This document shows positions 16,632 to 56,277 of a stretch of 64,000 nucleotides of DNA, piece by piece (the first letter of the stretch is position 1; each line of letters opens with the position of its first letter). The translations under genes and the position numbers were made by a program. Source of the DNA: Telluria beijingensis (GTDB lineage Bacteria; Pseudomonadota; Gammaproteobacteria; Burkholderiales; Burkholderiaceae_D); assembly GCF_030770395.1 (NCBI RefSeq), contig NZ_CP132480.1:2668855-2732854 (forward strand). The letters are read 5' to 3'. The notes beneath the pieces were generated by a model. The model was not told the DNA's origin. It did not search any database and saw only the letters and a list, made by a program, of their open reading frames with translations.

Positions 16632-17936
16632 TCAGGCCGGGCCTGCCCCGGCCAATGCCTCGACCAGCACCCCAGGCGCCACCGGCTTGACGAGATAGCG
16701 GTCGAACCCGGCCACCAGCGCGCGTTCGCGGTCTTGCGGCTGGCCGTAGCCCGACAGCGCGATGGCCAGCGGCCGGGTGGCGCCGGGCGCGGCGCGCAGG
16801 CGCGTCATGAGCTCGAGGCCGTCGAGCCCGGGCAGGCCAATATCGCACACGATGACGTCGAAGCGCCCTTCCAGCGCCAGCCTGAGGCCGGCATGGCCGT
16901 CATCCGCGATCTCGACCTGGTGGCCCTCGATCTCGAGCAGCATGCGCAGCACGTCCGATGCGTCGCGGCTGTCCTCGACGATCAGGATGCGGCGCGCGGC
17001 GACGGCGGCGACCGGGGCCCCGGACGTGGTGGCGACCGGCGCCAGGGACTGCGAGCGCGGCAGGCGCACCGTGAAGCTGCTGCCCAGCCCCAGTCCCGGG
17101 CTGGCGGCGCCGACGCTGCCACCATGCATGGTCACGAGGTTGCGCACCACGTTCAGGCCGACGCCAAGGCCACCCTCGGAACGCGCCAGCGAACGCGGCC
17201 CCTGGGTGAACAGGTCGAAGGCGTTCGCGATCGTTTCCTGGGCCATGCCGGTGCCGTTGTCAGAAATGGTCACGGCGACGCCGTCGGCCATCGTCACTTC
17301 GATCCTGCCGCCGTCCTGGGTGTACTTCGAGGCATTGCTGAGCAGGTTGGTGAAGACCTGGGTCAGGCGCACCCGGTCGCCGTCGACCACCAGTTCGGGG
17401 CAGTCGGCGCCGGCCAGGTTGACGACCGCCAGCTCCTGGCCGCGTTCGCGCAGCCGCGGCGCCACCGTGTCGGCCGCGTGCTCGAGGATCTCGGCCAGCC
17501 GCAACGGTTCGACCGTCAGCGTGATCTTGCCGCTGCTCAGGCGCGCGGCGTCCAGCAGGTCGTCCAGCAGGCGCGCCATGTGGTCGACCTGGCGCTGGAT
17601 CACGCTGGTCAGGCGCACCAGCGGGCCGGTGACCAGCGGCGAGCGCTCGAGGAGGCTGGCCGAGACGCTGACCGGCACCAGGGGGTTGCGCAACTCGTGC
17701 GCCAGCATCGCCAGGAATTCGTTCTGGCGGCGATTGGTTTCCTCGGCGTCGTCGCGCGAGGTCTGGGCGTCGACGGCGGCCAGCACCAGGTGCTCGTTGG
17801 CTTCGCGCAGGCTGGCGGCCAGCAGGCTGCTGGACTCCAGATCGCGCCGCAGTTGCGCGTTTTCCTGTTCCAGCGCCGCGATGCGGCGCGCCAGGTCGCT
17901 GTCGCCGAGGCCCGGTGTCGCCGCCATGAGATTCAT
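16632..17936 (-). CDS. Soluble hybrid histidine kinase/receiver, partner of the KaiC-like ATPase
   Basis: This 434-residue protein lacks a signal peptide or membrane helix. It has an N-terminal coiled coil (about 13-70) and a HisKA domain with phosphoacceptor His80 in LAMLAHELRNPLVPVS. The HATPase domain has N-box NLLSNASKYT near 197-206 and G-boxes SDNGTGM and GGLGVGLNVV. A C-terminal receiver (about 315-430) has acceptor Asp365 in VIVCDIGLPG and the KP pair in RYLVKPVAP. There is no sensory domain other than the coiled coil, so its input probably comes from a protein partner. The ATG lies one base after the KaiC-like stop, implying tight translational coupling. No DNA-binding output exists in the operon. 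Confidence 0.9.
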   Translation of the reverse strand: MNLMAATPGLGDSDLARRIAALEQENAQLRRDLESSSLLAASLREANEHLVLAAVDAQTSRDDAEETNRRQNEFLAMLAHELRNPLVPVSVSASLLERSPLVTGPLVRLTSVIQRQVDHMARLLDDLLDAARLSSGKITLTVEPLRLAEILEHAADTVAPRLRERGQELAVVNLAGADCPELVVDGDRVRLTQVFTNLLSNASKYTQDGGRIEVTMADGVAVTISDNGTGMAQETIANAFDLFTQGPRSLARSEGGLGVGLNVVRNLVTMHGGSVGAASPGLGLGSSFTVRLPRSQSLAPVATTSGAPVAAVAARRILIVEDSRDASDVLRMLLEIEGHQVEIADDGHAGLRLALEGRFDVIVCDIGLPGLDGLELMTRLRAAPGATRPLAIALSGYGQPQDRERALVAGFDRYLVKPVAPGVLVEALAGAGPA

Positions 17937-17937
17937 T

Positions 17938-19404
17938 TCAGCGCGTCCCGCGCGCGGTGGGCAGGCCGTGCAGCACGCCCTCGTACTCGGTAGCGGCCGG
18001 GTGGATATGGATGCCGTCGTCGCCGATATGGAATTCGCGCAGGTCGGTGCTGTGGGCGCTGCCGCGCACCTTGACCACCGAGATGAAGCGGCGCAGCTGG
18101 CCGCCGCTCTCGCCGAAGCGCATCAGAACGATGGCGTCGGTGAGGTAGGCGACATCCGCCTGGCCGAACCTGAGCTGGGTGAAGTCGTCGTCCAGGCCCA
18201 TCGTCACCAGCACGCTGACGCCGCGCTTGGCCAGCGACGACAGCATCTGGAACACGGTGGCGCGCAGCTGGTTGCGGCCCTCCGGCGCCAGGTACAGCGC
18301 CAGCTCGGACAGCGAATCGACCACCACCCGGCGCGCCTGGGTGCGGTCGATCGCCTCGTTCATCTCGTCGAGCAGCTCGTCCATCGTGAGGTCGATCTTG
18401 CGGCTCTCGACCATCTGCACGTCGCCGTTGCGCACCAGTTCGGCCAGCTCGGCATTGCGCAGGCGCGACGCGCCTTTCTCGAACGAGACCGCCACCCCTT
18501 TCTCGCCCAGGCGCGCGCCCTCTTGCAGGAAGCGTGTGCCGAGGATGGTCTTGCCGCAGCCGCTGGGGCCCGACACCAGCAGCGAATGCCCTTGCGGCAG
18601 GCCGCCATGGAGCAGCTGGTCGAGGTCGGGCGTGCCGGTCGGGATGCGCGCGGCGTCGCGGTCGACCCGCGCGCCCTGGTGGTGGTCGGCCGCCAGCGGC
18701 GGCAGGATGCGCGGATAGACGCGGATGCCATCGTCGGTGATGCGGAAGGTGTGCGAGCCGCCCAGGTGGGCCTGGCCGCGCATCTTGACCACGCGCATCT
18801 TGCGCACGACGGAATTGTCTTCGTGGACCGGGGTCAGCGAGATCATGCCGTCGGCCACCGTCATGATCGGGCTGGCCTCGGCGTCGCCGTGCTGGTATTC
18901 GCCGATCAGGAACGTCGTGGCCTGCCAGCTCGTCATGCGGGTGCCGAGTTCCTGGATGAAGTGCTGCAGGTCGGCCACGCCCTCGTTGCCGGCGCGCGCG
19001 GTCTGCGCCACCGAGCGGAACGAATCGACGAACACCAGGCTCGGCGAAAAGTCTTCGACTTCCTTCATCAGGCGCGCCAGCACGCCGCTGAAGTCGCCCG
19101 AGCGCAGGTCTTCGGCCAGGTTCACATAGCGCACGCAGGTGCCGACCATGTCCATGTCGAAGAAGCTGTATTGCTGCTGGTAGCGCAGCATCTTCAGCGG
19201 CGGCTCGCCCAGCACGGTGAAGAACAGCGCGCGGCGCTCGTTGCTGGCCAGCGAAAACATGATCTGGTGGGCCAGCGTGGTCTTGCCGGATCCCGGCGGA
19301 CCGGCGATCAGGTTGAAGGAAAACTCGCTCAGCCCTCCTCCCAGGAGAACATCAAGCCCCTGCACGCCTGTGCTCAGCTTGCCAAGGGATACTTTATCGC
19401 TCAT
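17938..19404 (-). CDS. KaiC-like double-domain RecA-family ATPase
   Basis: This 488-residue protein has two KaiC domains. The first has Walker A GPPGSGKT (35-42) and Walker B VFVDS (124-128). The second has GPSGCGKT (279-286) and VVVDS (360-364). Each domain ends with the family strand pattern VVKMRG or VVKVRG followed by SHTF or REF. Cyanobacterial KaiC has 519 residues. Aligning LTDAIVLM with KaiC ITDTIILL puts Ala419 and Tyr420 where KaiC has phosphosites Ser431/Thr432. The paired Glu after the first beta strand is altered in both domains (LGE at 65-67, FEK at 308-310). Clock function is therefore not implied; a regulatory ATPase feeding the adjacent hybrid kinase is more likely. It overlaps the upstream small gene by one base (TAATG). 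Confidence 0.9.
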   Translation of the reverse strand: MSDKVSLGKLSTGVQGLDVLLGGGLSEFSFNLIAGPPGSGKTTLAHQIMFSLASNERRALFFTVLGEPPLKMLRYQQQYSFFDMDMVGTCVRYVNLAEDLRSGDFSGVLARLMKEVEDFSPSLVFVDSFRSVAQTARAGNEGVADLQHFIQELGTRMTSWQATTFLIGEYQHGDAEASPIMTVADGMISLTPVHEDNSVVRKMRVVKMRGQAHLGGSHTFRITDDGIRVYPRILPPLAADHHQGARVDRDAARIPTGTPDLDQLLHGGLPQGHSLLVSGPSGCGKTILGTRFLQEGARLGEKGVAVSFEKGASRLRNAELAELVRNGDVQMVESRKIDLTMDELLDEMNEAIDRTQARRVVVDSLSELALYLAPEGRNQLRATVFQMLSSLAKRGVSVLVTMGLDDDFTQLRFGQADVAYLTDAIVLMRFGESGGQLRRFISVVKVRGSAHSTDLREFHIGDDGIHIHPAATEYEGVLHGLPTARGTR

Positions 19405-19787
19405 TACTTGTGCTCCTGTGCATTCTTCTCTTCCCCGTCACGCGCGGCCGCGTCGAGCAGGCGTCGCGCAAGCGCGTGCCCGATCAGGGACGCCAGCAGC
19501 TCGGTGAACGTCTGGAGCAGGGCCGCATGCGCGGCTTGTGCGTGGTCGGGTGCCACGCTGGCGAGCATCTCGTCCAGCGCGGTGATTTGGGAGTCGCGGG
19601 TCTTGCACGGCGGCGTGTCGGCCAGCCATTTGTATTCGGGACCGACCAGACGGCAAGCTCGTCCGTACAGGGCGCAAAAGCCACTGTCGCCGATGAGCGG
19701 ACCCAACTGGTCAGCCAGGCGGCGCCAGGATTGGATGAGCCGGATATGCTCTTCAGAACGCCCTGGGCCGCCCTTACTCGTCATCAT
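19404..19787 (-). CDS. Small conserved-looking protein upstream of the KaiC-like gene
   Basis: From the ATG at 19787 the product is 127 residues; a TTG at 19805 would add six. It is predicted soluble and mostly helical, with blocks WRRLADQLGPLIGDSGFCALYGRA and, near the C-terminus, LLQTFTELLASLIGHALARRLL. I recall similar short proteins next to KaiC-like and kinase genes in other proteobacteria but know no function. Its stop overlaps the KaiC start by one base, so stoichiometric production with the ATPase is likely. It shows no obvious resemblance to KaiA or KaiB. A TATAAT box lies about 100 bases upstream. Confidence 0.75.
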   Translation of the reverse strand: MMTSKGGPGRSEEHIRLIQSWRRLADQLGPLIGDSGFCALYGRACRLVGPEYKWLADTPPCKTRDSQITALDEMLASVAPDHAQAAHAALLQTFTELLASLIGHALARRLLDAAARDGEEKNAQEHK

Positions 19788-48330: not shown

Positions 48331-51300
48331 CTACTCGCGCACCCGGCGCCAGCCGGTGCGGCGCGCGTCCTGGGTCTTGGCCGGCTTCACCTCGGTGGTG
48401 ATGGTATTGCCCTTGGCGGTGGTGGTGATCAGCTTCAGCGCGCCCGAAGGCAGGCGCACGATGGTGATGCCGACCGCCGCCGCGTCGCCCGACAGCAGGC
48501 CGCCGGCGATGTCGCCCGCCACCGCTTCGCCGGTGCACACGTCCAGGAAGTAGGCGTAGCTGATGCCGCCCACCGCGCAGGCGGTCGACGACTGCGGCAG
48601 GTTGGTCACCACGGTGAGCGTGCCGGCCACGATCTTCGGATCCAGGTTGACCCGCTCGCCCGGGTTCTTGTCGAAGTCGACGAACCAGCCGCGCTGGCGG
48701 CCCAGGTCGGCGATCGTGCCGTCGATCGTGAACTGGTTCGAGCGCGGCACGTCCGGGGCCTTGTCGTCATACGGCCGCGTCTCGGTCAGGGTGCGCTTGG
48801 CATAGGTCTCGTCCTTGCGCCAGGTGCCGGCGTCGTAGGCGGCGTCGTCGTCCCTGAGCACGTAGGCGCTCTGCATCTTGGTGTTCTGGATGTCGGGCAG
48901 GTCGAGCATGCGCCCGGTGCCGAAGGACACCACGCGCGTGGTCGGCGACGCGCCCTCGCCCTTGTCCACCGAATTGACCTGGCACATGGCGACGTCGGGT
49001 CGGGTGGTGATCGGCTGGTTGGCGCCGGCATTGGCCATCAAGAGGCGCTTGACCTTGTCGCCGGTGAAGTCGAAGCGCCACATCTGGCCCTGGTTGTCGC
49101 CGCCATACACATAGGTCACCAGCGGATCGGTATTCGGGTTGGCCGTGATCGCCGTGATCTTGGCCAGGCCCGACGGCGTGGTGGTGTCGCCGCTACCGGT
49201 GGTGAGGAGGCCCCCATCCATCGCCTCGCTGGCGCCGAGGTTGGCGATCGCCTCGCCGGTGGCGACGTCGATCACGAACAGGTAGCCCTTGCCGCTGCCG
49301 GACTGGATATCGTCGGCGCCCGGGATATTGTTGTAGCCCGAGGTCAGGAACACCACCCAGCGCTCGGCGTCGCCGACCTTGATCGTGCCGAACTGCGGAT
49401 TGCCGAAGGTGAAGCCCATCTCGGGCTGGTGGTGCACGCCGCCGCACACGGCGCGGTCGGCGCAGATCTCCCACAGCGGCTTGGGATCCGCGGGATCGGT
49501 GACGTCCAGCGCGTAGTAGCCGCGCCCGCCGGCGTTCAGGCCGGCCACCAGCACCGAGCGCCATTCGCCGTTGATCTTGACGTCGGCCAGCTCGGGCGAG
49601 CCGTCGGTGCTGAACTGGTGGCTCGACGCGTAGTTGACGCTGGCCTGGCGGTGCAGCTTCTTCATGGTGATGCGCGGCATATAGGCCCACAACTCGCCGC
49701 CGTCGTCGGCGTCGAAGGCGTGCAGCATGCCGTCGTTGGCGGCGATGAAGACCACCGGGTCGCGGCTCGCGTTCTCAGTGCGGTAGGCGCGGTAGTCTTC
49801 GCTGCCGTAGGCCTTGCGCGGCTCGCGCAGGTAGGCCGGCTTGGACGAGGCGATGTCGCCCAGAATTTCCAGTTGGGCGCCATTGGTCCCGGTATCTTCG
49901 GGTCCGGTGGTGGTGTAGGCGCGCAGCAGGATGTTGTTGGCGTGCTGCTGCTGGCCGCGCAGCCAGCCGACGATGGTCGCGCCATTGTCGACCACGGCGC
50001 GCTGGGCGGCCGACATGCGCGCGCACTGCGGCAGCGCCGAGCATTTGTTCGAGAACCAGGCCTGGTCGGCGCCGAGCAGGTCGTAGCTGAATTCGGTGCG
50101 CCGGCCCGTCGTCGGATGACGGAACCAGATACTGCGGCTGTCGGAGTCGGCGCGCACCTTCTGGCCCAGGGTCCAGGATGTCTTCCAGTTGACGTCCTTG
50201 CTCACTTCGCCGGTGACGACGTCGATCACGCGCTTGCTCAGGTTGCCCGTCCACTTGACCGTGGTGAAGGTGGCCGAGAAGATGTCGCGGTCTTCCTGGG
50301 CCACGTTCGGGGTCGAGGTCGCGGCCGCGGCGGCGGCGCCGGTGGCGACCTGGATGTCGTTCAGCACCTGGTTCAGGCTGTCGACCACCTGCAGCGGGTC
50401 GGAGGCCGGGAAATACTTGCCGCCGCCATTGATCGCGGCGTGCCACAGGTCGTCCACGCGCGACTGCAGCGCGGTCGACAGGTCGGTGGTGCCGGTATTC
50501 GGGTCGGGCCAGACATAGGCGCCGTTCCCGTTCCACGGGCAGCCGGTCTTGACGCCGTTGATCAGGTTGTAGAAGTCGCCGCCGACCACCGGCTTGGTGT
50601 CGTAGTTGGGCTCATAGGTCATGATGCCGTCCACGCCCAGGCCCAGCGCGTAGGTGCGCATGTGCAGGTGGGTGTTGCCGGTGCCGGGCACCTGGCCGGT
50701 CTTCGAGATGTCGTCGATCTCGGGCCGCAGCGACACGGTGCCGGTGCTCGAGCCGCCGTTATACCAGTACAGGGCGACGTCGGCCAGCGAGGGCAGCGTC
50801 TGGGCGCGGGTGTCGAGGCAGCCCTTCTCTTGCGTGCAGAAGCGCGCCGGGTTGACCCGGTTGTCGTTGTTGGCCACGACCTCTTCGTACTCGGCCGGGG
50901 TCCAGCGGGTCGCTTCCTTGGTCTGGCGCTTGGGGCTGTCGCCGTTCCAGTAGCCGTCGGTGGTCACGAAGGTGAAGTTCTGCTGGCAGGCATACTCCAC
51001 CGTCTCGGAACCGACCGGCTGCTTGTAGGGCGACTGGTTGGCGAACATCTTGCCGATCGCGTGCAGGGCGAGGCGCACCGGGGTGCCGCCCGAACTGTTC
51101 ATCGCGTACAGGGCGTTGTACCAGTCGATCCGGGTCTGGCCCGTGAACGGCCGCGGGCGACTCATCGTGCCTTCGGCGGCGGCGTCCTGCAGGCCCACCA
51201 GGCCGACCTTGTAGGCTTCGCCCAGCGGCTGGAAGGCCAGGCCGACGGCGGTCTTCATCATCTGGTTGCGGGTCTTGTAGTAGCTGTACCAGTTGGCGAA

Positions 51301-53007
51301 GTTGGTCATCTCTTCGTCATAGGTGCAGGTATCGCCCTGGCAGTCGGTGCGCTGGGTCGACTTGGGATAGCTGTTGCGGCTCGAGACGATGTCGGTGCGG
51401 ATGAATACGCCGGTATCGAAGCCCGAGACAGAGGTCGGCGCGCCGTTCGACGTCGCCGGGGCGCCGCCCCAGCCCAGGCTGCCGGGATTGTCGATCCGGG
51501 TATAACTCAGGTTGGCGCCGGCCATGCTCACCGGCGCCACGATGCACACCATGGTGTTGGTGGCCGTCGCGCATTGCGGGGTGATGTTGTTCGGCCCAAC
51601 ATAGGCCTTGATCGTGCCATTGGTGCCGATCTCGCTCGCGATCGCCGACGCGACCTGGGCCGCGGTATTGTTCGAGCCGAAGCGCAGCGAGTCGATCAGG
51701 GTGGTGGTGCCGAGTTTCAGCCCATTCAGGCGGCTGCGGCCGCTGGTGCTGCTGCTGTTGGCGCTGCGGCCGGTGACCTGCAGCAGCGCGGTGGCGGCGG
51801 TGCCGGAACTCACCAGGATCTCGTCGCCGGTGCGCTCGCCCTCTTTCACCACCGTGCAGTTGTTCTTGTTGGTGACGTTGCGGCCGCAGCTGATCGGGAT
51901 CACGGCCAGCATGGCGTTCGATTCGAGCGTGATGCCGAAGTCCGAGCAGGCCCGCACCACGCCGCTGGCGCGGACCGCGCAGGCGGTGAATGGCCGCCCC
52001 AGGCCCGCCTTGTTGACGATCGATGCGGCCAGCGCGGTGGCCATGGCGGCGCGCTCGTCGGCGCTGTTGGTGCCGCCGGACGCGGTCACCGCGTCGCGCG
52101 CGATGTCCTGGGTCGCGGCCACGCCGACCGAGGTCACGCCGGTGATCGTCACCGCCGAATTGGAACCGGAGTCGTTGATGGTGATCGTGGTGTACCAGTT
52201 GGCCGAGCGGTTCGGGTCGCCGAAGCGCGGATATTTATAGTTGCCGACGTACTTGGCCTGGCAATCGGTCAGCGCCGTGCTGTTGCACCAGCGAACCGGC
52301 GCCGGCACCGGATAGCCGGTGGGCGCCGGGGCATTGACCGCCGTGCTCACGCAGGTCTTGAGGCTGGTATTGGTGCAGTATTCGGCGACGTTGATCGTAT
52401 AGTAATAGGGATTGCCGCTGACCTGCTCGGGATCGTCGTAGGCCAGGCTCGGATAGGTGTAGCCGATGAGGTTGCGGCGGCACTCGCCGTCGTCGTTGCA
52501 CCAGGCCAGGTCGGGATAGCCGGTGACCAGGTTGGTCTTGGTCTCGCTGGCGTTGCGCATATTGCGCTTGTCGACGCCGAAGCCGTCGCTGGCGACGTCG
52601 GTCCAGTTGCTGGTCTCGCGCGCGGTCTGGCTCGGGTACGAGGTCTGGTCGGCCTTCACCGGCGGCTGGTAGCGCACCTGCGGGTCGTAGTACTGGCGGT
52701 TGAACAGTGGCGCCGCATACGGCGCGTCGCCGATCACGCAGCCGCGCAGGCCGCGCGCCAGGGTCGTGCTGGCGCGGCAGGTGGTGTTGTCGTCGACGTA
52801 GTCGGGTGTATGGTTCCAGGCCATCGAGCCCGAATCGTCGTACAGCAGCATCAGGTTCGGCTTGACGGTGCCGCTGCCGGTAATGCTCATCAGCGGCAGC
52901 GAGGCCAGGCCGGTCGGTCCGGCCGCGGCCGGGAGCGAGGCCAGTCCCATGGCAAGCGCCAGGGCCAGCGCGGTAAGGGAAGAGAAATTCATGCGCAATC
53001 CAATCAT
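48331..53007 (-). CDS. pilY1: Type IV pilus tip/adhesin protein PilY1-like
   Basis: The 1558-residue product is PilY1-like. Its ATG is at 53007, with a second at 52992. A signal peptide (about 1-29) precedes a von Willebrand A-like domain with the MIDAS motif DDSGSM (57-62). A Cys-rich middle region (disulfide-prone) extends to about 1000. The C-terminal PilC/PilY propeller (about 1050-1540) holds calcium-binding-like sequence [13 protein letters not shown]. PilY1 sits at the pilus tip, counteracts retraction, and mediates adhesion and surface sensing. It is the last gene of the minor-pilin operon, 10 bases after pilX. Confidence 0.93.
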
Positions 53008-53017
53008 GGGACAGGTC

Positions 53018-53611
53018 TCAGGCGCCGATCAGCACGGCCAGCTGGTTGATCACGTTGCCGCCGCGCGCGCCATCGATGCGGGCCGTGATCACGTAGTGGA
53101 TCTGGGGCGAGCTGGCATAGGCCGGCGCGTCGGAGGCCAGGCTCTCGCCGATCGCCACCTTGTTGCCGAGCTTGACGGTGTTGGCCGAGGTCAGCATGCA
53201 GTCCTGGTTCGGGCTGCTGAAGCTTCCCGTAGCGCGGCACATGCGATGGATCACGTAGCGGATCTTGTTGCCGTCCGCATCCTCGACTTCCACGCTGTCG
53301 TCCCAGAATTCCTTGTCGTTCGGCGTGAGCGTGGTGTCGAGATTGGCGTGGTAGCCGGCGGCCGAATCGTTATCGTTCAGGCTCGCCTTGCTGGCGGACG
53401 CCGTCTCGCTCAACCACTGGAAGCCGGTATGCAGTCCGAAGTCGACCGCCCGGCTCAGGGTGGCGTCATAGGCCAGGTTCGATGCCGCCAGCGTGGCCGA
53501 ATTGCTCGATCGGAGCAGGTAGATGCTGGTCACCAGCATCACCAGCATCATGATCAGCATGACCGGCAGGGCCGCGCCGGCCTGGCGTGCGGATGTCGAT
53601 GGAACACTCAT
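53018..53611 (-). CDS. pilX: Type IV pilus minor pilin PilX-like
   Basis: The 197-residue membrane protein from the ATG at 53611 overlaps the pilW stop by four bases (ATGA). Its N-terminal QAGAALPVMLIMMLVMLVTSIYLL segment (about 10-33) is the PilX_N type: it lacks a canonical Gly-Phe prepilin cleavage site with Glu5, as is usual for PilX/GspK-like members. A pair of cysteines in MCRATGSFSSPNQDCML suggests a disulfide. It probably joins PilV, PilW and FimT in the tip complex with PilY1. Confidence 0.88.
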   Translation of the reverse strand: MSVPSTSARQAGAALPVMLIMMLVMLVTSIYLLRSSNSATLAASNLAYDATLSRAVDFGLHTGFQWLSETASASKASLNDNDSAAGYHANLDTTLTPNDKEFWDDSVEVEDADGNKIRYVIHRMCRATGSFSSPNQDCMLTSANTVKLGNKVAIGESLASDAPAYASSPQIHYVITARIDGARGGNVINQLAVLIGA

Positions 53612-54786
53612 GCGGTAGGCCTCCAGCCCATATTGCGCAGCGGGACGATGGTCTCGAAGGCGCGGTAGCGGTAGCAGCGCCAGTCGACGCTGTCGCCTTC
53701 GACGGCCAGGTCGAGCGTCACTTCGCTCGCCTCGACGCCATGCGGCTGCTCGCTGCCGAATACCTTCATCGCCTCGGGCTGGGCGGTGCACGCGGCCCCG
53801 GCCGCGGCGCGCTCGGGCGTCTTCGCGCGCGCCACCACGGCGATGCGCAGCGCGGCCAGGCGCTGGTAGTCGCCGGGGCCGCCCGTCACGCCGTCGCCGT
53901 CGGCATCGATCATCTCGGCCGACCATTCCCCCACCTGCATGCCCTGTTCGGGTTCGAAATCGGCCTCGGTGCGGGTATCGAAACCGTATTGCGCCTTGAG
54001 CGAGACGATGTTGTCGGCCACCGCGTGCGCCGCGCCGCCATCGCCGCCCAGGTTGGTGGCGCGCAGGCGCAGCACGCCGTCCTGTACCGACCAGGTGTGG
54101 AACGACAGGCTGGATTCGCGTCCCAGGTTGAACACGCGGCTGGCGCTGCCCTCGAAGTTGCGGCCCAGCGCGCCGGTATTGAAGCGGTAAGCGGTGCTGC
54201 CGATCGCGACCGACGGCTCGTCGGCGCTTGGGTCCGACAGACCCGCGACCTGCGCCAGCGCGCACTTGCCTTCGCCATTCTCGGGCGCCACGACGATCAC
54301 GTCGCCGAGCGCGAACCCATAGGGCGCGCGATCGACCGCAAGCTGGGTGCCGCCGATGTAGTTGCCCTCCAGGCGCATGGTGCCGGTGCCGCCCGGCGCG
54401 CTGCCGGCGTACATGGTCAGGCGGTCCGGCTTGCCATCGACGCCGGGCTCGATCACGGCGCTCGCCAGCGGCGTCACGTCGACGCCGCCGCGCTTCGTCG
54501 TGGCCAGCTGGTAGCCCTTGCTGTCCTTGAAGATGGTGTCGCAGCCGCTCAGGATCGGATCGTTCAGGCCAAAACCGGCCTGCTCGGCGTCGGCGCTGAT
54601 CGAGAACATCGCCATCATCCCGTTCTGCATCGAGTCCGAGCCGCCCAGCGCGCCGCGCTTGGTATTTTCGGAGTCCGTCATGATCCGGGTGGCGAACATC
54701 ACCGCCAGCAGGCCGATGACGATGCTGACCATCAGTTCGACCAGGGAGAAGCCGGCCACGCGCTTATTTGCAAGCATCCTGTTCAT
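53608..54786 (-). CDS. pilW: Type IV pilus minor pilin PilW-like
   Basis: The 392-residue prepilin from the ATG at 54786 has the leader MNRMLANKRVAG followed by FSLVELMVSIVIGLLAV, i.e. cleavage after Gly12 and Glu at +5. The large C-terminal globular domain shows DSMQNGMMAMFSIS, an APENGEGKCALAQV-like segment and Asp-rich loops (IDADGDGVTGG) that may bind calcium. The gene overlaps pilV and pilX by four bases each. It is a minor pilin of the tip complex. Confidence 0.9.
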   Translation of the reverse strand: MNRMLANKRVAGFSLVELMVSIVIGLLAVMFATRIMTDSENTKRGALGGSDSMQNGMMAMFSISADAEQAGFGLNDPILSGCDTIFKDSKGYQLATTKRGGVDVTPLASAVIEPGVDGKPDRLTMYAGSAPGGTGTMRLEGNYIGGTQLAVDRAPYGFALGDVIVVAPENGEGKCALAQVAGLSDPSADEPSVAIGSTAYRFNTGALGRNFEGSASRVFNLGRESSLSFHTWSVQDGVLRLRATNLGGDGGAAHAVADNIVSLKAQYGFDTRTEADFEPEQGMQVGEWSAEMIDADGDGVTGGPGDYQRLAALRIAVVARAKTPERAAAGAACTAQPEAMKVFGSEQPHGVEASEVTLDLAVEGDSVDWRCYRYRAFETIVPLRNMGWRPTA

Positions 54787-55232
54787 CCCGACCTCGTCAG
54801 ATAGGTCACGACACGGTGGGTGTTCGGCAGGCCTTGTTCGCCGCGGCTCCACTGGATTGCGATCACGACGGCGGTGCGTTCGGCATCCTCGGCCGGCGTG
54901 ACCGTGATCTCCACCGCGGCATTCGGCAGGTTTCCGGACAGCGCGTCGTGCCAGGCTTCGAGCCGCTCGCCGGGCTGGCCGTTCTTCGCCAGCGCATACT
55001 CGTCCAGGTGGTCGAGGTCGGTGCTCATCACGCCGATCAATTCGTTGGCGGCGATGGTCGCTTCGGCGCGCATCGCGGCTTCGGACAGGGCGGCCTGGGA
55101 GTTGACCTGCAGCGCCAGCGTGCCGACTAGGCCGATCCCCAGCAGGATCACCGCGATCAGGGCCTCGAGCAGGGCCACGCCGCGCTGGGCCTGGCGCACG
55201 GGAGCAAAACGGGGGGAAAAGCGGCGGTTCAT
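54783..55232 (-). CDS. pilV: Type IV pilus minor pilin PilV-like
   Basis: The 149-residue prepilin from the ATG at 55232 overlaps the upstream stop by one base (TGATG). Its leader ends RQAQRG and continues VALLEALIAVILLGIGLVG, giving cleavage after Gly and Glu at +5; Val replaces the usual Phe at +1. The conserved LQVNSQAALSEAAMRAEATIAANELI stretch is typical of PilV. It is part of the tip complex and ends in a four-base overlap with pilW. Confidence 0.9.
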   Translation of the reverse strand: MNRRFSPRFAPVRQAQRGVALLEALIAVILLGIGLVGTLALQVNSQAALSEAAMRAEATIAANELIGVMSTDLDHLDEYALAKNGQPGERLEAWHDALSGNLPNAAVEITVTPAEDAERTAVVIAIQWSRGEQGLPNTHRVVTYLTRSG

Positions 55233-55849
55233 CACGGGCACCTGCGCGCATCGTGGTCGTCGACGTCGGGACGGCAGGTCACCACCGCGCCGGCCAGGGT
55301 CAGCACCACGGCGGACGGCGTGAAGCCATCCTCGGCGTCGCCGCTGCCCGGGCCCAGGTCGAAGCGCATCAGCGCCGGCTTCGCGCCGTCGACCCAACCC
55401 AGCTCGGTGAAATACACCGACCTGGCGTCGCCATCGGGCGTGACGCCCAGGGCCGAGGCGCGCGGCAGGCTGGCCGCACTGCGAAATACCGAGGGCGTCG
55501 CGACGTCGCCTTCGGACGGGCCGACGGCCGGTTCGTCCACGGTCGACCAGCGCTCGCTGTCGGCGCCGCAGCGGTCGTCGGCGACCGGGAAGCAGACATC
55601 GACCTGCCAGTCCAGCTGGCCGCTCTGGTCGTTTTCGGTGAACACCAGCCGGCTGCGGCTATTGTTGGCCAGGGCCTGGGCGCGCGCCAGGCGGAAGCCT
55701 TCGGCATAGAACTGGGAAGCGCCGGTCGCGCTGGTGGCGCCCAGCCAGCCGCGCATGCTGGGAATGCCAACCGCCAGCAGGATGCCGAGGATCGCCACCA
55801 CCACCATGGCTTCGAGGGCCGTGAAGCCCTGCTCGCGCGCGGCGGTCAC
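55232..55849 (-). CDS. fimT: FimT/FimU-like minor pilin (GspH domain)
   Basis: The most likely start is a GTG at 55849, which overlaps the pilE stop (GTGA) as elsewhere in this operon. This gives 205 residues with an eight-residue leader ending QG and mature sequence FTALEAMVVVAILGILLAVG, with Glu at +5. A longer reading from 55885 is less likely because it overlaps pilE by 40 bases. The GspH-type globular domain contains FYAEGFRLARAQALANNSRSRLVF. Cysteines pair in VCFPVADDRCG and near the C-terminus. It is assigned by position and domain. Confidence 0.85.
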   Translation of the reverse strand: MTAAREQGFTALEAMVVVAILGILLAVGIPSMRGWLGATSATGASQFYAEGFRLARAQALANNSRSRLVFTENDQSGQLDWQVDVCFPVADDRCGADSERWSTVDEPAVGPSEGDVATPSVFRSAASLPRASALGVTPDGDARSVYFTELGWVDGAKPALMRFDLGPGSGDAEDGFTPSAVVLTLAGAVVTCRPDVDDHDARRCP

Positions 55850-56277
55850 TGGGTGCACGCGCCCTCCGCGCGGTCGACCCAGCACTCGTCGCTGGTGGTC
55901 CAGCCGTCCGGTGCTTCCACCGTGACCCGGTTGCCGGCCTGGTCGATGCTGTAGACGAAGCCGGCGGCGGCGTTCTTGCCGGTGGCGAGCATGGTATAGG
56001 CCGAGGCACTGACATCTTCCAGGGTATAGTCGAAGTTCTGGCCGTTGTCCGGCATCTGGCTCGCGCCTTCCTTGTCGAAGTCGACATAGGTCCGGTTATT
56101 GCTCCAGAACTGCTCCAGCTTGACCTGCGTGGACGCCAGCACGCCGTGCGCCTCGGCCAGGCGGGTGCGCAGCACATAGCTGTTATAGGATGGCACGGCG
56201 ATCGCGCTGAGGATGCCGATGATCGCCACCACGAGCATGAGCTCGACGAGCGTGAAACCGGACTGGCGCTGCTGCAT
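55846..56277 (-). CDS. pilE: Type IV pilin PilE-like
   Basis: The 143-residue prepilin from the ATG at 56277 follows AGGAGA. Its short leader MQQRQSG precedes FTLVELMLVVAIIGILSAIA, a perfect type IV pilin N-terminus with Glu at +5. Two cysteines near the C-terminus (DECWVDRAEGACTQ) form the D-loop disulfide. It may be a minor or accessory pilin, since in many genomes the pilE of this operon resembles minor pilins. It heads the operon, whereas in others it is usually placed last. Confidence 0.88.
   Translation of the reverse strand: MQQRQSGFTLVELMLVVAIIGILSAIAVPSYNSYVLRTRLAEAHGVLASTQVKLEQFWSNNRTYVDFDKEGASQMPDNGQNFDYTLEDVSASAYTMLATGKNAAAGFVYSIDQAGNRVTVEAPDGWTTSDECWVDRAEGACTQ

Follow-up and report, generated by a model that had tools for sequence, protein, structure and literature searches.

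Varied signalling enzymes share one putative input helix beside a KaiC-like ATPase and a small helical protein: a candidate soluble input module in Telluria beijingensis and its relatives

Introduction

What is the role of KaiC homologues that have neither KaiB nor the KaiC phosphosites? The closest described cases come from the 2011 genome paper of Ramlibacter tataouinensis, which reports kaiC genes neighbouring kinase genes without kaiB, one such pair being cotranscribed by reverse transcription polymerase chain reaction, and a third group of kaiC genes with poor phosphosites that lie near kinases or GGDEF/EAL proteins (PMC3164672). Here we address this question with a three-gene operon in a 64,000-nucleotide stretch of the genome of the soil bacterium Telluria beijingensis (contig NZ_CP132480.1, positions 2,668,855 to 2,732,854; "the window", whose own numbering is used below). 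Its minus strand encodes, in order, a small protein (19404..19787; 127 residues plus stop), a two-domain KaiC-like ATPase (17938..19404; 488 residues) and a soluble hybrid histidine kinase (16632..17936; 434 residues). A helix of about 28 residues ahead of the kinase core recurs in other signalling enzymes encoded beside the same pair of genes in other genomes. Varied enzymes with one short input segment beside the same pair suggest a plug-in switch, not a clock.

The operon resembles the second Ramlibacter context in that a KaiC homologue lies beside a histidine kinase in a genome without kaiB. However, the kinase in that context has a KaiB/SasA-like N-terminal domain, whereas the window kinase has about 70 residues before HisKA and, according to Pfam, no KaiB domain. 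It also resembles the third context in its poorly kept phosphosites and nearby signalling genes, a likeness judged by these traits. Neither the small protein nor the helix is mentioned in the section of the Ramlibacter paper on kaiC contexts. Like the cyanobacterial KaiABC-SasA clock, the operon combines a two-domain KaiC ATPase with a histidine kinase as its proposed reader; unlike the clock, it has no KaiA or KaiB, no phosphosites and no KaiB-like kinase domain, and it has a constant small helical partner.

Archaeal KaiC-like ATPases have been described as signalling hubs (Makarova 2017, cited through PMC5847659). The likeness is the use of a KaiC family member as a hub, with two-component and further signalling components nearby; the difference is that the described families are archaeal. 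Phytochrome-regulated diguanylate cyclases such as PadC share with the present enzymes a helix before GGDEF, lengths in multiples of seven and, in our proposal, register switching (PMC9587094), but the PadC sensor is fused to its enzyme, whereas the window kinase shows no fused sensor and separate proteins are proposed to take that part. Cyclic-di-GMP shifts the Synechococcus elongatus clock and, according to the assays of that study, does not do so by direct action on the Kai proteins (PMC13001216). Our search, which covered part of the open-access literature, turned up no account of the small protein or of the helix; this does not show that none exists.

A common helix in kinases and GGDEF enzymes

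One segment of about 28 residues, roughly L[RQ][EQ]ANxxLVxAxxxA, precedes the catalytic domains of kinases and cyclases alike. In the window kinase it occupies residues 43-70 (LREANEHLVLAAVDAQTSRDDAEETNRR; 17727..17810, minus strand), with Asn47 lying 33 residues before His80. Among 30 genus orthologues, kinase positions 43-52 are on average 92% conserved, as against 34% for positions 1-40. The remainder of the protein is that of a hybrid histidine kinase with the HisKA histidine, HATPase_c and the receiver aspartate all present (Pfam: HisKA 71-136, with His80; HATPase_c 186-295; Response_reg 317-428, with Asp365). The initial annotation regarded a coiled coil as the only input of this kinase, and the helix is indeed its sole N-terminal feature, one that proves to be a specific trait shared by enzymes beside the ATPase subfamily.

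A motif-bearing partner is present in 89 of 100 loci with the ATPase (L119 and L173, which come from one contig, each count in this tally and in that of 98 enzymes below). A profile of the motif, run over 13,316 open reading frames (ORFs; 1.19 Mb), matched at E<1 solely kinase or GGDEF ORFs and one truncated kinase (58 of 82 distinct motif segments were retained, and the alignment used 25). Of 98 enzymes encoded on the same strand as a KaiC and no more than 1 kb from it, 89 carry the motif, as do 12 of 45 other enzyme ORFs, all of these 12 within 2 kb on the ATPase strand. Profiles built from one enzyme class also detect it in the other (E<0.01): the kinase-only profile matches 21 of 35 GGDEF-only ORFs, and 66 of 103 kinase ORFs are matched by the GGDEF-only profile; together, these cross-class profiles match one other ORF among the 13,316, a truncated kinase.

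The association extends to whole genomes. The T. beijingensis genome, a single contig of 6.0 Mb, has one motif match, the window kinase (E = 5.8e-13; the next is 0.63), as against 126 HATPase_c matches. Among 300 genomes of the order, the motif is found in 16 (E<1e-4) and the ATPase subfamily in 17, four of them in the window genus, own genome included; both occur together in 14 (p = 2e-19). We defined the subfamily by at least 44% identity over nearly the full length, other KaiCs reaching at most 34%, and scored five candidates per genome. Three genomes (G266, G703 and G555) have the ATPase without the motif; beyond the 16 with the motif, four of the 300 have a weaker match, up to E 0.1. In a class sample of 369 genomes, a search with the motif alone picked out six from outside the order (E<=0.001). 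All six have KaiC next to the motif, and five have the small gene; the sixth has no more than a fragment of KaiC. The motif is thus tied almost exclusively to the ATPase subfamily.

We propose that the small protein and the KaiC-like ATPase probably constitute a soluble input module that acts through this helix. The initial annotation had suggested the ATPase or the small protein as the signal for the kinase, and a shared helix is what would be expected if so. Could the helix instead be an internal signalling or dimerisation helix that was inherited with the enzymes, the ATPase and small protein acting at another place such as the receiver or the kinase core? Coiled-coil linkers are common in front of HisKA and GGDEF domains (see also PMC9587094), and the spacing from the motif to the catalytic domain is fixed, as for an internal linker. 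However, the motif is present at only one of 126 HATPase-bearing places in its own genome and in two of 283 genomes without the ATPase subfamily (E<1e-4). Furthermore, it is common to kinases and GGDEF enzymes, whose catalytic domains are not homologous. Hence, we consider a purely internal helix rather unlikely.

Several observations nonetheless weigh against an input module that acts through the helix. A motif-bearing partner on the ATPase strand is missing from eleven of the 100 loci; of these, three are cut by a contig end and one clade has a HisKA_3-type kinase as its neighbour. The motif occurs without the ATPase in genomes G612, where the contig ends beside the gene, and G586. Nine of the 98 KaiC-neighbouring enzymes counted above do not have the motif, some of them lying beside other KaiC types, and it is degraded in extra upstream kinase copies (L133, L134 and L163). 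The constant spacing described below may, within one kinase lineage, partly reflect common descent. Finally, since the profile was derived from the same loci, some of the association counts involve partial circularity; this applies less to the cross-class profiles.

Helix spacing and exchange of partner enzymes

The distance from the motif asparagine to the phospho-histidine is 33 residues in 60 cases and 47 in 15, values that are two heptads apart. Six further kinase spacings, counted by eye, are three of 33 (one with alanine in place of the histidine) and three of 47, and a single spacing of 66 belongs to the first of two tandem motif copies in L088. From the same asparagine to the start of GGDEF there are 31 residues in 24 of 24 proteins. 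In most phytochrome cyclases, linker lengths in multiples of seven mark functional coiled-coil linkers (PMC9587094).

The enzymes beside the small protein and ATPase include a hybrid kinase encoded downstream, as in the window, a kinase encoded upstream, a kinase together with a GGDEF-EAL enzyme, a GGDEF-EAL enzyme alone, a GGDEF-kinase fusion, a GAF-PAS kinase (L129) and, in one clade, a HisKA_3-type kinase (Pfam; L068). On a FastTree tree, from which L119 was excluded and in which 34 of 97 inner branches are weak, partner type changes at least 21 times; eight changes of the kinase label are forced by well-supported branches. What stays constant is the small protein with the ATPase, the kinase being one among several exchangeable outputs.

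Among the partners, the GGDEF motif is retained in 26 of 26 motif-bearing GGDEF proteins, an EAL-like motif in 20 of the 21 that are not fused (the exception is L120), and the phospho-histidine in all 76 non-fused motif kinases. In four of five GGDEF-kinase fusions (L065 and L124-L126) the phospho-histidine is replaced by alanine or glutamate, with GGDEF and the motif retained. Three of the five fusions have two motif copies (E<1), one for each catalytic part, and the other two have a weaker second copy by eye.

These fusions bear on the possibility that phosphate flows in the reverse direction, from the kinase to the ATPase or small protein, making the ATPase the output. In favour of this reading, which the initial annotation gave as an alternative, the kinase has no output domain of its own in Pfam; the initial annotation was also right that there is no DNA-binding output, Pfam finding no DNA-binding domain in any of the three operon proteins. 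However, neither the ATPase nor the small protein has a conserved receiver or HPt domain according to Pfam, four of the five fusions have no phospho-histidine, and the partner in some relatives is a GGDEF-EAL enzyme, which is incapable of phosphate transfer. We regard reverse flow as highly improbable.

Three further arrangements were observed at these loci. L071-L074, three of which are the same places as L132-L134, have an additional kinase copy upstream of the small gene, and the motif is lost in L133 and L134. The clade that lacks the motif has a gene for a PEP-CTERM protein downstream of that for the ATPase (L068:6665-7363 and L070:5522-6310). At L065 (4076-8391), the cluster of small protein, ATPase and GGDEF/kinase is preceded at a short distance by genes for another, separate KaiC, for two KaiB proteins and for a PAS kinase.

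Conservation of the small protein and the ATPase

The three-gene operon is confirmed and lies where it was first described. The TAA of the small gene and the ATG of the ATPase gene share base 19404 (TAATG, a one-base overlap), and the ATPase TGA and kinase ATG are one base apart (17937). Within the genus, 35 of 37 genomes, own included, have an ATPase orthologue (at least 63% identity over at least 460 residues); in the set compared, its nearest named relatives are from Massilia aurea. All three genes are present in each of the 30 orthologue loci checked, the window included, and among the small-protein matches listed for 61 genomes, 41 of 41 adjoin an ATPase match. Against seven relatives, the ratio of non-synonymous to synonymous substitution rates (dN/dS) is 0.085-0.16 for the small gene, which indicates purifying selection on a protein initially noted only as conserved-looking, 0.10-0.38 for the ATPase gene and 0.27-0.51 for the kinase gene. 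Adjacency within the genus is weak evidence because the entire neighbourhood is conserved there; other sites and taxa provide stronger evidence.

A profile search placed the small gene directly upstream of the ATPase gene in 20 of 20 loci, of which 14 are outside the genus and six lie within it but at other sites; L121 has the small gene split, and L089 matches it only partially. In a scan of named genomes limited to the best 80 of 586 confirmed relatives, it is directly upstream in 79, the remaining locus (L164) being cut by a contig end, and it is broken or partial in L171, L181 and L185. About half of these 80 are Oxalobacteraceae; others are from Polaromonas, Thiobacillus, Gallionella, Nitrotoga, Nitrosospira, Methylotenera, Caballeronia and the gammaproteobacteria Methylobacter and Crenothrix. 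Of the 100 loci, 98 have the small gene immediately upstream of the ATPase gene, the other two being one partial match and one contig-cut locus. The initial annotation proposed a survey for co-conservation of all three genes and held that rare adjacency would count against a link. For the small protein and ATPase, adjacency is frequent; the kinase partner, by contrast, varies.

It could be argued that the three genes are neighbours through descent alone and have no functional link, and the trio does sit in a gene order that is conserved across the genus. However, the small protein and ATPase are found together again at different sites, as well as in further families and orders. Moreover, partner type has changed at least 21 times, with eight well-supported changes for the kinase label, yet most partners keep the motif. 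Descent alone is a highly unlikely explanation.

The small protein matches no Pfam family. It is predicted to be all-helical (helices 12-48, 53-56, 64-77, 80-102 and 104-117), with disordered termini. Among the fold matches shown for it there is no KaiA or KaiB chain, a result that excludes neither identity. After removal of near-copies, 75 of 80 small-protein stretches were left, and the alignment consists of 73 of them (without the fragments L171 and L185) and the window protein. Its C-terminal QE[HQ]K is conserved and overlaps the likely ribosome-binding site of the ATPase gene (CAGGAG; 19413..19418, minus strand), within the 3' end of the small gene. Since this end lies over the likely ribosome-binding site and is disordered in the structure model, it is probably conserved as RNA and not as peptide. 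A purine-rich stretch like CAGGAG precedes the ATPase ATG in most relatives listed.

Two clusters have a second small gene directly before a GGDEF-EAL gene (L194:842-3010 and L207:1100-3057), a hint that the small protein could accompany the enzyme. At L121 (4180-7107), the small gene is apparently split by about 2.4 kb of other DNA.

The ATPase and the case for a clock

The ATPase is a member of the KaiC family, with two PF06745 (KaiC) stretches (Pfam, 240 bits). Both Walker A lysines (Lys41 and Lys285 in the window protein) and both Walker B aspartates are invariant in all 115 aligned rows, in both domains. The catalytic glutamate pairs and the phosphosites are named here for their roles in KaiC. 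In the CI pair, mapped by eye, the first glutamate position is glycine in all 115 rows (window Gly66); in the CII pair, mapped from the KaiC alignment, the second is lysine, glutamine or arginine in 114 (window Lys310). At the phosphosites, position 431 is serine in 19 of 115 rows, and position 432 is phenylalanine or tyrosine in 109 and serine or threonine in none; the window ATPase has Ala419-Tyr420. Its alignment to a 518-residue KaiC chain stops at residue 491 of that chain, residue 484 of 488 in the window ATPase, so the KaiC tail is largely missing. From these residues, nucleotide binding looks to be kept and the autophosphorylation cycle looks to be lost.

A phosphorylation clock is therefore unlikely, the ATPase being without KaiC phosphosites. 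The broader form of this idea is an hourglass or clock in which autophosphorylation lets the ATPase keep time and the kinase acts as its reader, in the way that SasA does for KaiC. KaiC homology does span both ATPase domains, and KaiC-kinase gene pairs without kaiB have been proposed as hourglasses (PMC3164672). However, the same paper doubts timing for KaiCs without two phosphosites, and neither KaiB (PF07689) nor KaiA (PF07688) has a match across the 6.0-Mb genome, although both models match the S. elongatus control. The absence of KaiA and KaiB from the operon, noted initially, thus extends to the genome. Together with the residues at positions 431 and 432, these results make an hourglass or clock very unlikely, and the time-dependent relay suggested in the initial annotation does not fit an ATPase whose autophosphorylation residues are replaced.

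At about 4.0746 Mb, the same genome has another KaiC gene (L064:6582-9771; 29% identity), with a hybrid kinase gene after it. That kinase has a long N-terminal region and no motif, and the phosphosite pair of that KaiC is Ser-Tyr, as in the second Ramlibacter group.

A proposed mechanism

How might the input module work? We suggest that the ATPase, probably a hexamer like other KaiCs, would change state with bound ATP or ADP, or with a further ligand. With the small protein as a putative adaptor, it would then bind the helix of about 28 residues ahead of the kinase core, although either protein might be the one that reads it. The helix would continue as a coiled coil into HisKA, such that engagement shifts its register and switches the kinase on or off. 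The kinase receiver could pass phosphate on, perhaps through an HPt protein encoded elsewhere; the genome has 14 HPt matches, none of them linked to the operon. In relatives whose partner is a GGDEF-EAL enzyme or a GGDEF-kinase fusion with the same helix, the output would be cyclic-di-GMP.

Judged on sequence comparison, the input module appears well supported and the idea of a clock weak. In its most general form, our proposal is that a clock-less KaiC ATPase and a helical adaptor make up a plug-in module, widespread in beta- and gammaproteobacteria, that reads ATP state and drives unrelated enzymes through a docking helix in fixed register, linking phosphorelay and cyclic-di-GMP signalling; we advance this tentatively, as a possibility. 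The helix provides a concrete handle, since it points to the likely output enzymes and to residues within them. If the proposed binding is true, two signalling currencies would have KaiC as a general allosteric driver, beyond its role in the clock, and the label "circadian clock protein KaiC" would be misleading for this ATPase subfamily.

Other features of the window

Neighbouring genes carry presumptive names (DUF885, def, galU and others). Further along the window, at 48331-56277, a run of minus-strand genes encodes proteins with prepilin-like starts and a 1554-residue protein; by eye, it resembles a type IV pilus minor-pilin cluster.

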